Shown: in pieces, positions 7,222-61,224 of the stretch
Layout: every line of letters starts with the position of its first letter
How positions within the stretch are numbered: position 1 is the stretch's first letter
Assembly: GCA_944381375.1 (NCBI GenBank)
Contig: CALWKX010000002.1
Span: forward strand, 1-64,000
Source: an uncultured Lachnospiraceae bacterium
Lineage (GTDB): Bacteria; Bacillota; Clostridia; Eubacteriales; Anaerofustaceae
Direction: 5' to 3'
DNA length: 64,000 nucleotides
Made by a program: the position numbers and the translations under genes
Notes under the pieces: model-generated
What the model was told of the DNA's origin: nothing
Databases searched by the model: none
What the model saw: only the letters and a program-made list of their open reading frames with translations

Positions 7222-7402
7222 ACAGGAACCCTTTAATGAGACGAACGTAAAAAACGGCGCAATGTTTTTATATATGCGCGGCTGAAAACAAAAGGCGGAT
7301 GCGCGATTTAATTAGTAATGTTTAAAAATTTTTCTGGCAAAACACATTATATGACTAATGCCAAGGGTAATATTTATAATTCCCGCCCTGCTCAATGTAC
7401 AA

Positions 7403-7432
7403 AAGACATAAGATAAACTTATGTCTTTTATT
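7403..7432 (+). terminator. Probable terminator downstream of dedA
   Basis: AAGACATAAG (7403-7412) pairs perfectly with CTTATGTCTT (7418-7427) over a 5-nt loop, followed by TTATT. It lies about 180 nt past the dedA stop. Confidence 0.5.
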
Positions 7433-7528
7433 CTGCCCCAAACCAAGTCATCCCCCTTAAACTGTCTTTACAGCAATCTTAAAAATCCGGTAAGAATATA
7501 TCGATATAACACGCTTATACAACAAAAG

Positions 7529-15377: not shown

Positions 15378-15464
15378 GGCGGCAGCCGCGCGTCAAGACA
15401 TAAAGTCTTAACGCGCTGAGTCCGCTTCAGCGGACTCGCCCGATTTATCGGGCAGGCTGCCGCC
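15378..15464. repeat. Cloverleaf palindromic element A (outer stem plus three hairpins)
   Basis: Outer arms GGCGGCAGCC (15378-15387) and GGCTGCCGCC (15455-15464) are perfect 10-bp complements. Between them are three adjacent hairpins: 15388-15416 (GCGCGT/ACGCGC plus AAGAC/GTCTT around ATAAA), 15420-15435 (GTCCGC/GCGGAC) and 15439-15452 (CCCGAT/ATCGGG). Only 0-3 nt separate the stems. Either DNA strand or an RNA could fold into a four-way junction. It lies between the convergent DUF454 and flavoprotein genes. Outer stem and arm sequences differ from elements B and C, but the architecture is the same. Confidence 0.85.
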
Positions 15465-19398: not shown

Positions 19399-19507
19399 AC
19401 AAATATACGATTTTATGAAGCAGACGCAATTTATGAGTTTGCAGGTTGTTTTAATTGAACAAACATGAATTAAATTATATAATATTTTCAAAGAAAGGAT
19501 TATGTTT

Positions 19508-21241
19508 ATGTACTCGGACACGCAAATAAAAAATGAATATGAACGCTGGAAACAAAATGCAGTAATCGATTCTGATTTAATAAAAGAACTTGATGATATT
19601 AAAAATAATTATGACCAAATAAAAGAAAGATTCTACAAAGATCTCGAATTCGGTACAGGCGGCTTAAGGGGTATAATCGGAGCCGGTACAAACAGAATGA
19701 ATATATACACAGTAGCCAGAACGACTCAGGGCTTCAGCAATTATTTAAATGCACGCGGTTCTTCTTCGAGTTTGAGTGCAGCAATATCTTATGACAGCCG
19801 TATTAAATCAAAGCTTTTCGCTAAAACAACCGCTTGTGTATTTGCTGCCAACGGGATTCATGCATATATTTACAAAGAATTAATGCCAACGCCCGCGCTT
19901 TCATTTGCAGTAAGATATCTGAAAGCAGACGCCGGCGTCATGATAACGGCAAGCCATAATCCATGTGAATACAACGGCTATAAAGCTTACGGCAGCGACG
20001 GCGGTCAGCTAACTTTAGAAGATTCTCAAAATGTTCTTGATTATATTAATGCTACAGATATATTCAATGACATTAAAATTATTACGTTCGAAGAGGGATT
20101 GAATAAAGGTTACATACATTTAATTGATGATAAAGTAACAGATGAATACATAAAAAACGTATCGTTGCAAGCAATAAATAAAAATATTGATAAAAACGCT
20201 TCAATAGTATACACGCCCCTTAACGGTGCAGGATTAAAATGCGTTATGAGGGCGCTTAACGAAAATGGATATAATAATATAAAAATTGTTGAAGAACAAA
20301 AAGAAGCAAACGGAAATTTCCCTACATGCCCATATCCGAATCCCGAACAAAAACAAGCCTTAGAACGCGGATTGATATTGGCCGAGAAAACAAAAAGCGG
20401 CCTTTTGATAGCAACGGACCCCGATTGCGACAGGTGCGCGGTTGCAGTAAGAGTTAATGAAGAATACGAGCTTTTGAGCGGAAATCAAATGGGATTGCTG
20501 ATGTTTGAATATATATGCTCTCAGAGAACAAACAATTCCACAATGCCTGCTTCTCCAGTTGCAGTAAAGACTATAGTTTCTACACGTCTTATAGAAAACA
20601 TAGCAAGAGAATACGGAGTAAGGCTCATCAATGTACTTACAGGTTTCAAATTCATAGGAGAACAAATCGGTCTGCTTGAAGATAGCGGTCTTGAAAAAAA
20701 TTACATTTTCGGTTTCGAAGAAAGCTACGGTTATCTTACTGGAAGTTATGTAAGAGACAAAGACGCCGTAAACGCAGCGTTAATTATAAGCGAGATGTAT
20801 TGTTATTACAAGCAAACCGGCATGAATTTGGTCGATGTGCTTAATAATCTATATGAAAAATACGGTTACTGCATGGATACTGTAAAAAGCTACACTTTCG
20901 AGGGTGCAGACGGATTTTCGCTTATGAAACAGATTATGAATGATTTCCGAAAAAAACACATAACAAACGCAGGAGGGAAAAAATTAGTATCATACACAGA
21001 CTATATCTCAGGAAAGACAGTAAATGAAATTAACGGCGAGATTTCGCCTACCAACCTGCCTTCATCCGATGTGGTAAAGTTCGAATATGAAGATTCAGCA
21101 ACAGTAATCATCAGGCCCTCCGGTACGGAACCCAAAATAAAGCTTTATTTTTCCGTGACGGAGAAAAACAAACAAAAAGCAAGCGCTATAATTGAAGATA
21201 TCAGTATTAAATTTGATAAAATAATTTGCAGCTACAAATAA
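19508..21241 (+). CDS. pgcA: Phosphoglucomutase (alpha-D-phosphohexomutase, PgcA type)
   Basis: Interconverts glucose-1-phosphate and glucose-6-phosphate, feeding UDP-glucose and envelope polymers. The 577-residue length fits the Firmicute PgcA/PGM2-like group. All four domains are visible: the phosphoserine loop TASHNP with S149, the metal loop DPDCDR at 304-309, the sugar-specificity loop GFEES at 402-406 and the phosphate-binding loop RPSGTEP at about 536-542. Two in-frame ATGs exist (19502 and 19508); the AGAAAGGA site lies 2 nt before the first and 8 nt before the second, so 19508 is preferred. It ends 13 bp before palindromic element B. Confidence 0.93.
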   Translation: MYSDTQIKNEYERWKQNAVIDSDLIKELDDIKNNYDQIKERFYKDLEFGTGGLRGIIGAGTNRMNIYTVARTTQGFSNYLNARGSSSSLSAAISYDSRIKSKLFAKTTACVFAANGIHAYIYKELMPTPALSFAVRYLKADAGVMITASHNPCEYNGYKAYGSDGGQLTLEDSQNVLDYINATDIFNDIKIITFEEGLNKGYIHLIDDKVTDEYIKNVSLQAINKNIDKNASIVYTPLNGAGLKCVMRALNENGYNNIKIVEEQKEANGNFPTCPYPNPEQKQALERGLILAEKTKSGLLIATDPDCDRCAVAVRVNEEYELLSGNQMGLLMFEYICSQRTNNSTMPASPVAVKTIVSTRLIENIAREYGVRLINVLTGFKFIGEQIGLLEDSGLEKNYIFGFEESYGYLTGSYVRDKDAVNAALIISEMYCYYKQTGMNLVDVLNNLYEKYGYCMDTVKSYTFEGADGFSLMKQIMNDFRKKHITNAGGKKLVSYTDYISGKTVNEINGEISPTNLPSSDVVKFEYEDSATVIIRPSGTEPKIKLYFSVTEKNKQKASAIIEDISIKFDKIICSYK

Positions 21242-21254
21242 ATCAACGTACTCG

Positions 21255-21393
21255 GCGCGCAGCGCCTGAAATTAAGAGCCGGCAGAATGCCGGCTCTTAA
21301 TTTCAGCAAAAGCGCAAGGTATTGCGCTTTTATACGCATACAGCAAAATAAAGGCGGTTGCCTTTATTTTGCTGTATGCCAAGCGCTGCGCGC
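21255..21393. repeat. Cloverleaf palindromic element B (outer stem plus three long perfect hairpins)
   Basis: Outer arms GCGCGCAGCGC (21255-21265) and GCGCTGCGCGC (21383-21393) are perfect 11-bp complements. Inside are three perfect hairpins: arm 1 (21266-21283 with 21289-21306, 18 bp, loop AGAAT), arm 2 (21308-21317 with 21322-21331, 10 bp, loop GGTA) and arm 3 (21336-21355 with 21360-21379, 20 bp, loop GGTT). Nearly every base is paired. The element sits between convergent pgcA and the LCP gene. Its outer stem core is identical to element C, while the arms are unrelated. Confidence 0.92.
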
Positions 21394-21444: not shown

Positions 21445-21479
21445 TAAAAGACAGTCCGTATAAAACAGACTGTCTTTTA
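21445..21479. terminator. Bidirectional terminator between pgcA and the LCP gene
   Basis: TAAAAGACAGTC (21445-21456) pairs with GACTGTCTTTTA (21468-21479), a 12-bp stem flanked by A and T runs. It serves the LCP gene on the minus strand and probably pgcA. Confidence 0.75.
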
Positions 21480-21489
21480 TATTAAAAAT

Positions 21490-23004
21490 CTACTGAACTA
21501 ATACTGGCGAGGATTTAATGACACTTTGTATATACTGTCCCGGATTCTTAATATTATTTATTTTCTGTATAGCTTCAGTTACAGTATCCTCATAAGGTTT
21601 CATAACATATAGTTCTTCAGAAGGATAAGAATACGTCGTTGAATAATCGCTATATCCATCAAGACTCGTTGAAACTATATCCCAGCTCGACATATCTTCC
21701 AACTGCATTTTTATCAGCGCAGTGATCATTTCAGTAGGTATATTCATGCTAACATTGCTGGTTATAGCATCCATAACCGCCGTATAATTCTGAATTATAG
21801 ACGGCGAAATTATTTTGTTTATTATACCGGCTATCAATGCTTCCTGATTTTTTCCTCTGTCCTTATCCCCTTCAGGAAGATTATACCTTTCACGAACAAA
21901 CGAAAGCGCCTGTTCGCCATTCAAAGTATTCATACCCTCTTCATAATGATAAACTTCAAAAGTACGTTCACTTCTTGTAGCATCGAATGTATACATGGAA
22001 TATACGTCAACTCCCCCAAGCGCATCCACAATATTAACTACTGATTCAAAGTTGACTATTACATAATAATCCAACTGCGTATCTAAAAGCCCTTCTAATG
22101 TTTCTATACTGCAATCCATGCCGTAAGCGCCTGCATGCGTCAGCTTATCCATTTTCGACGCATCTGCGTAAAGCGCAACATAATAATCTCGAGGCACACT
22201 CGTCAGCAATATCTGTTTCGTTACAGGATTGATTGTCGCCACTATATTTACGTCCGCATTGCCGTACTCAAAGGATCCGTCACGAGTATCAAGACCTCTA
22301 AAATAGACAGTAAACGGTTGAGTAACATACGAAGAAGAAGTCTGGGATGTAGTTTCGTTTTGTATTGTATGCACAACAGACAAATTCTGATAAATATCGG
22401 GATGGTCATTTAGTATCATATCCATGTATTTATCGTTCACGACCATAAGTTTAATTTCTCCGTCATTTAGCGCATTTACCATTTCGCTAAAATCAGTATA
22501 ACTTTTTGTATCAAATGTTTTTCCCGCTTCGTTATATATCTGTTCAAGCGCATATCTTGTATTTTCTTCATCAACCAATTCTCTTACGCCTATTACATTA
22601 GTTTCATCCAATTGCTTTATATCGTTAATATTTTCTATACCGGAGTCTTTAAGAGCAATTATGTTTATTGTCTCGTGAGAAGCATCGGAACCCATATTCT
22701 CCATATACCTGAAAGTTGTATGAATATAATAAAATCCAGCAGCAATAACGGCAATAGCTATTATGCTGATTATCGTGCCGACTATATTTTTCCATTTTTT
22801 TATTGTTCTGCCCAAAAAGAAAATAAAAGATAATAAACATAACAATAAAAGGCCGCCGCAAAGCACTGCAAAATGAAGCGTCGGAAGAATATCGTAATTG
22901 TACACATACAAAGCAAATCCAATAGAAAATATGATTTGGAGGCCGAGCATAATGACGCCGACTCTCAATAATTTTAATTTTTGTTTTTCGCTTTTACCAG
23001 ACAT
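21490..23004 (-). CDS. LCP-family (LytR-CpsA-Psr) cell-wall glycopolymer transferase
   Basis: A 504-residue membrane protein that attaches teichoic-acid or other glycopolymers from undecaprenyl-linked precursors to peptidoglycan. Three N-terminal membrane segments (about residues 10-95) precede an extracytoplasmic region of about 130 residues resembling a small solute-binding fold (IENINDIKQLDETNVIGV onward), an arrangement seen in other clostridial LCP proteins. The LCP domain follows, with TSVPRDYYV, THAGAYGMD, VNFESVVNIVDALGGVDVY and SFVRERYNLPEGDKDRGKNQ, carrying the conserved Arg and Asp residues. AAAGG precedes the ATG. Monocistronic. Confidence 0.92.
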   Translation of the reverse strand: MSGKSEKQKLKLLRVGVIMLGLQIIFSIGFALYVYNYDILPTLHFAVLCGGLLLLCLLSFIFFLGRTIKKWKNIVGTIISIIAIAVIAAGFYYIHTTFRYMENMGSDASHETINIIALKDSGIENINDIKQLDETNVIGVRELVDEENTRYALEQIYNEAGKTFDTKSYTDFSEMVNALNDGEIKLMVVNDKYMDMILNDHPDIYQNLSVVHTIQNETTSQTSSSYVTQPFTVYFRGLDTRDGSFEYGNADVNIVATINPVTKQILLTSVPRDYYVALYADASKMDKLTHAGAYGMDCSIETLEGLLDTQLDYYVIVNFESVVNIVDALGGVDVYSMYTFDATRSERTFEVYHYEEGMNTLNGEQALSFVRERYNLPEGDKDRGKNQEALIAGIINKIISPSIIQNYTAVMDAITSNVSMNIPTEMITALIKMQLEDMSSWDIVSTSLDGYSDYSTTYSYPSEELYVMKPYEDTVTEAIQKINNIKNPGQYIQSVIKSSPVLVQ

Positions 23005-28050: not shown

Positions 28051-28100
28051 TAATTAAATAAAATACGGCGCTTACAGCAGCGCCGCATTTTATTTAATTA
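28051..28100. terminator. Bidirectional terminator after the MazF-like gene
   Basis: A 22-bp stem with a single mismatch (28051-28072 with 28079-28100) around loop TACAGC has a GC-rich tip (CGGCGCT/AGCGCCG) and an AT-rich base. It lies between the MazF-like stop and the cysteine-rich gene. Confidence 0.75.
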
Positions 28101-50893: not shown

Positions 50894-50911
50894 TTTTCTG
50901 TCATCTGATAT

Positions 50912-50960
50912 AAAAAAACAGTCTGTCGAAACGAAAGGGTTCGCCGGACTGTTTTTTTTT
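50912..50960 (+). terminator. Terminator after the Lrp gene
   Basis: AACAGTC (50917-50923) and GACTGTT (50947-50953) enclose an inner CGAA/TTCG, followed by nine T. Palindromic element C begins 3 nt later. Confidence 0.8.
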
Positions 50961-50962
50961 AC

Positions 50963-51109
50963 GGCGCGCAGCGCAACCGATAAAACAAAAGGCGATTTAC
51001 GCCTTTTGTTTTATCGGTATACAAGCTCAAGCAAGCTTGAGCTTGTAATGCACATATGTTAACAGGAAAATACGTTTTCCTGTTAACATATGTGCAGGCG
51101 CTGCGCGCC
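50963..51109. repeat. Cloverleaf palindromic element C (outer stem plus three long perfect hairpins)
   Basis: Outer arms GGCGCGCAGCGC (50963-50974) and GCGCTGCGCGCC (51098-51109) are perfect 12-bp complements. Inside: arm 1 (50976-50994 with 51000-51018, 19 bp, loop 5 nt), arm 2 (51020-51031 with 51036-51047, 12 bp, loop CAAG) and arm 3 (51049-51070 with 51075-51096, 22 bp, loop TACG). One unpaired base separates each stem. Only the outer stem is shared with element B. It lies between the Lrp gene and yabP. Confidence 0.92.
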
Positions 51110-61160: not shown

Positions 61161-61164
61161 ATAT

Positions 61165-61209
61165 ATTAAATCAAAGCCGCCGGCTATATACCGGCGGCTT
61201 TGATTTAAT
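61165..61209. terminator. Bidirectional terminator between traB and yacL
   Basis: A perfect 19-bp stem (61165-61183 with 61191-61209) around the loop CTATATA. The GC-rich core GCCGCCGG/CCGGCGGC has AT-rich outer pairs that become U-tails in both directions. Confidence 0.85.
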
Positions 61210-61224
61210 AATAATTTCTATGTA

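Follow-up and report, generated by a model that had tools for sequence, protein, structure and literature searches.

Between a phosphohexomutase gene and a convergent gene of the LytR-CpsA-Psr family, the window analysed here (the whole stretch of 64,000 nucleotides) carries at positions 21255-21393 a palindromic element in which an outer stem encloses three perfect hairpins, giving a cloverleaf (Table 1). The original prediction had described this layout, and we found it as described except that the stem of hairpin 1 measures 19 bp instead of 18 bp. Folded as DNA, the element reaches -73.8 kcal/mol, compared with -27.4 ± 2.8 kcal/mol for 200 shuffles (z = -16.4). The window holds three cloverleafs in all: this one, a second long copy (element C), which does have the same outer core as had been claimed, and a third, shorter copy flanked by convergent genes. 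A diverged copy of a second structured repeat, called MOTIF below, is also present. Outside the cloverleafs, single long near-perfect hairpins occur at 28051-28100 and 61164-61210 (22 and 20 bp respectively), which are possibly terminators.

Table 1. Cloverleafs, neighbouring genes and other structured features of the window.
Feature	Position	Strand	Remarks
Diverged MOTIF copy (second structured repeat)	7378-7462	-	No cloverleaf after it
Third, shorter cloverleaf	15378-15464		Outer stem GGCGGCAGCC/GGCTGCCGCC; hairpins of 11 (one mismatch), 8 and 6 bp
Phosphoglucomutase/phosphomannomutase gene (phosphohexomutase)	19502-21241	+	Upstream; stop codon 13 bp before the 21255-21393 element
Outer stem, 5' arm GCGCGCAGCGC	21255-21265		11-bp outer stem
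Hairpin 1	21266-21306		Perfect 19-bp stem, 3-nt loop
Hairpin 2	21308-21331		Perfect 10-bp stem, 4-nt loop
Hairpin 3	21336-21379		Perfect 20-bp stem, 4-nt loop
Outer stem, 3' arm GCGCTGCGCGC	21383-21393		
Ordinary bidirectional terminator-like hairpin (A-run/T-run)	21446-21478		~50 bp beyond the 21255-21393 element; read in the sequence
LytR-CpsA-Psr family gene	21490-23004	-	Convergent, downstream of the 21255-21393 element
Terminator-like hairpin with T-run	50909-50961	+	Directly 5' of element C
Element C, second long cloverleaf	50963-51109		12-bp outer stem; hairpins of 19, 12 and 22 bp

To take a census of such structures, we scanned 1,542,570 joined bases, nearly all of the 1.54-Mb genome (four small contigs were represented by N), for chains of perfect hairpins within an outer stem. 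Genome-wide, the scan returned 43 structures, 41 of them with exactly three hairpins; no three-hairpin structure appeared when the genome was resampled five times with a first-order Markov model. Removal of one AT-rich chance case and addition of five copies located by outer core or by model gave a final set of 47, and the genome thus holds about 47 cloverleafs, far beyond the count in the original prediction. All have an outer stem and measure 73-170 bp; the outer stem forms terminal inverted repeats in every copy, often near GGGGCGCG and variable. Subfamilies differ by arm length and outer stem: a long one with a GCGCGCAGCGC core (~150 nt, with hairpins 1 and 3 long), a short one with a GGGCGCGGC core (~85 nt), and a further one with outer stems of 22-35 bp and mostly short hairpins. 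The claim that the arms share no sequence held across subfamilies and within the long one; it failed within the GGGCGCGGC subfamily, whose copies have recognisable arm sequence in common and are therefore related by descent. Because long-subfamily arms are unrelated between copies, descent by copying can be stated for the GGGCGCGGC subfamily only. CRISPR-like acquisition of arms from other parts of the genome was rejected, as no long matches were found. Insertion into existing terminators was considered because flanking sequence often extends the outer stem, but aligned units argue otherwise: by eye, they seem to share the outer arms GGCAAAA..TTTTGCC, so the extension is probably part of the element.

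Beyond this genome, similar cloverleafs were found in one other genus of the family and nowhere else in the order. With strict filters, model R1 matched no other genome of the order. With lax filters it matched ~18 places in one relative, G010 (20 matches counting both strands), and up to three weak ones in another, G004, both from one other genus of the same family; 38 further genomes gave no match at E ≤ 1. The R1 E-values are rough, and distant sequence types would escape this model. The one relative copy that was read (L136:9145-9223 in G010) folds as a cloverleaf of different sequence, which places the layout in a related genus by this copy directly and by model score for the others. Contigs of G010 terminate in hairpin clusters or beside them (L313:11005-11146 and the ends of L136), one being a 69-bp perfect fold-back; such ends are probably an assembly effect of these elements.

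The family is real, and it is unnamed within Rfam, the phage and plasmid records and the literature searched. As had been foreseen, Rfam gave no match at the gathering threshold for the window copies, and in 18 loci searched at E ≤ 1 the matches touching cloverleafs were all below threshold (AaHKsRNA41 at 32.7 bits, cut-off 97; rncO at 25.8 bits, cut-off 43). Phage and plasmid records contained no match to the cloverleaf. Among the matches listed, exact outer-core matches in relatives and ~85,000 species, as well as those of two core patterns in viral contigs, were coding or GC-rich chance matches, and none of the outer-core loci fetched from these sources passed the cloverleaf scan.

The folded architecture is tightly kept. 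Junction linkers, 0-2 nt long in most copies, average 0.4, 0.9, 1.3 and 0.6 nt, and the hairpin loops are mostly of 3-4 nt. Watson-Crick pairs account for 2143 of 2155 stem pairs (99.4%), with 12 G-T pairs and five internal defects, a fraction inflated by the scanner's demand for perfect stems; copies chosen by the outer core only are nearly as perfect. The near absence of G-U pairs points to DNA as the folded form and weakens the idea of a structured RNA put forward in the original prediction. Its expectation that pairing persists without arm sequence, with an excess of compensatory change, was borne out: among 17 related GGGCGCGGC copies, 22 of 37 pairs have changed on both sides, and the covariation score of 0.249 (compared with 0.090 for shuffled and ≤ 0.081 for slid alignments) was reached by none of 500 shuffles, a count that is not a probability because the copies are paralogues.

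Two processes might keep the arms complementary. Fold-back template switching, proposed for RNA genes, can make and keep perfect stems (PMC8794818); in the cloverleafs, a mutated hairpin would be rewritten from its other arm, and the arms would stay perfect. The model predicts an asymmetry between arms, with more G-C and U-A pairs (PMC8794818). The 5' arms of the cloverleafs have G over C as predicted, but not T over A, so support for template switching is partial. Their A:T ratio is 427:161, with 1617:763 in other hairpins genome-wide, and this excess of A over T is not something that strand bias can cause. Selection on the folded strand, acting with or instead of template switching, could likewise remove copies unable to fold. 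The closest two copies, C22:79470 and C22:99616, differ at four positions, every one of them in a loop and none in a stem, while their homologous flanks are strongly diverged; the identical arms accord better with constraint or selection, or with gene conversion, than with free turnover of the arms.

Thirteen cloverleafs are coupled to MOTIF, an element of ~87 nt with the layout TTAAGGGG...CGGGG..AATACGTAYGGAAAG-hairpin-CTTTCCAACATAAGCGGGGCGGGAATT, in which conserved single-stranded flanks surround a near-perfect hairpin whose sequence varies between copies. About 28-30 copies occur genome-wide, most of them behind genes whose direction they share, the best being C20:42158-42244 and C20:79217-79304. 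In 13 of 28 cases a cloverleaf follows within 100 bp on the 3' side, compared with 0.2 expected from random placement, and no cloverleaf lies that near on the 5' side; by inspection, the 13 linked cloverleafs belong to the GGGCGCGGC type or resemble it closely. The genes 5' of MOTIF look ordinary and unrelated by eye, and the strongest sign that the copies spread as units is that the pairing recurs at unrelated loci. MOTIF has no Rfam match and is absent from the cloverleaf-bearing relative G010; in other genomes only weak, mostly partial matches near E 0.05-0.09 were seen, none convincing in relatives. Downstream of one MOTIF-cloverleaf pair, past C20:1811-1901, there is a T-box leader (Rfam, 116 bits; L146:1752-1998).

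The reading that we favour, with roughly even confidence, is that the cloverleafs are a REP-like, lineage-restricted family of dispersed palindromic DNA with a new architecture, in which a four-way-junction cloverleaf is conserved rather than a sequence, and which has spread by copying. Copies would often move as a composite unit of ~200-260 bp (MOTIF, linker and cloverleaf), with the copying done by a trans-acting enzyme that recognises the folded strand or by replication or repair. They may persist behind genes because they do little harm there, and might serve as barriers to read-through from both sides.

The positions of the copies fit a second explanation as well. Cloverleafs are dispersed, extragenic and located at gene 3' ends; with gene orientation taken from simple ORF-rule calls, they are enriched in convergent spacers (OR 3.9, p 0.0003) and depleted from divergent ones (OR 0.15, p 0.002). 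Several occupy the entire gap between two convergent stop codons, with 11 and 0 bp left to the stops at C22:105662 and 39 and 13 bp at C22:139898. Because some copies fill such gaps completely, the main rival is that they are 3'-end structures selected by the host and formed in RNA, either a strong bidirectional barrier to transcription or a protector of mRNA 3' ends; function, not mobility, would then account for them. The A-rich 5' arms, as in this genome's other hairpins, and the constrained look of the paired positions suit this explanation as well, and we regard it as possible, if doubtful. A T-rich tail (at least six T among the first 9 nt past the outer stem) follows at only 5 of 58 flanking gene ends, and the elements are, as had been claimed, unlike canonical terminators; ordinary terminator-like hairpins adjoin both long window copies; a transcript-level role sits poorly with the scarcity of G-U pairs; a single simple hairpin would suffice; and the MOTIF composites look like spread.

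Spread by copying raises the question of an enzyme. The genome (G000) has no Y1_Tnp gene (PF01797; REP/IS200), an absence that is not absolute because G000 is 92.65% complete, and no cloverleaf was matched in G001, which has the most Y1 genes among the relatives. The link to a REP-type HUH transposase suggested in the original prediction thus loses ground, and the lack of Y1 transposases speaks against a REP/RAYT mechanism. Reverse transcriptase (PF00078) is likewise absent from G000, the general tyrosine recombinase family (PF00589) has three matches, and no mobiliser candidate was identified among these three families; multi-copy proteins, considered as transposases, were by eye transporters and CoA-transferases. 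The flanks listed contain, by eye, no consistent target-site duplication and no shared GTAG/CGTC-type tag beside the outer stem. A more far-reaching reading, in which a mobile or domesticated element is known by the shape of its folded strand alone, a Holliday-junction-mimicking cloverleaf whose arms are fully replaceable without loss of function, conserved across genera that share none of its sequence and read by an undescribed junction-reading enzyme, strikes us as unlikely. That the cloverleafs are substrates of a site-specific recombinase or HUH enzyme that recognises structure, like attC or IS200/REP ends, is less probable again: structure conserved without sequence, an almost fully paired junction and the cassette-like order of MOTIF and cloverleaf behind ordinary genes speak for it, but the enzyme searches described above offer little, no conserved cleavage motif was noticed at the ends, and there is no cassette array.

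The distribution along the genome is uneven, with 23 of the 47 cloverleafs (p 6e-7) and many MOTIF copies on two contigs, C20 and C22, which together amount to 17% of the genome. This clustering, and a change of sign in GC skew near the end of C22, would suit cruciforms that organise the chromosome, such as sites for an SMC-like, nucleoid or junction-binding protein, but local spread also fits the clustering, and searches for dnaA, dif and recombinase-signature motifs gave nothing decisive and did not fix the placement relative to origin or terminus; such a role is very improbable. An assembly or chance artefact is scarcely credible. In its favour, the assembly is fragmented, three of the copies are no more than 400 bp from a contig end, and one contig of a relative terminates in a folded-back palindrome; against it, most copies sit well inside contigs with differing flanks, the resampled genomes contain none, and covariation is strong.

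If structure alone is recognised, the cloverleafs would be a repeat family overlooked by sequence-based repeat finders, and a simple hairpin-cluster scan could seek them in any genome. They also form a naturally occurring collection of paralogous perfect hairpins whose arms change in sequence and stay paired, suitable for measuring template-switch copying against selection as the keeper of perfect stems.

Several known systems resemble the cloverleafs in part. Like intrinsic terminators, they place a stable hairpin with an A-rich 5' arm at gene 3' ends, but they comprise four helices, and most copies lack a U-tract. Integron attC sites are imperfect hairpins with R and L boxes that lie in cassette arrays; they too are conserved in structure, variable in sequence, folded from one strand and located behind genes, whereas no cassette array is found at cloverleafs. 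The double-hairpin elements of mitochondrial DNA are also repeats defined by hairpin architecture. They are organellar and consist of two hairpins without an enclosing outer stem; on this general description, the bacterial cloverleafs, with three hairpins and an outer stem, are set apart from them. MITEs are likewise short non-autonomous repeats with terminal inverted repeats, to which the outer stem corresponds. MITE copies, however, share their interior and a parent transposase, whereas cloverleaf subfamilies share the layout only, inner sequence being common to copies within the GGGCGCGGC subfamily and not within the long one, and no parent was found. REPs and REPINs, with their RAYT (TnpA-REP) enzymes, offer a further likeness: they are dispersed extragenic palindromes, many per genome and mostly behind genes, and REPs are recognised as folded single strands. 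A REP is a palindrome of 20-40 bp tagged with GTAG (or CGTC) at one end (PMC3733652), whereas cloverleafs span 73-170 bp, have three hairpins within an outer stem, carry no end tag that we noticed and come without Y1. Being REP-like in habit but different in the features that define REPs, the cloverleafs are therefore placed beside that family rather than within it.
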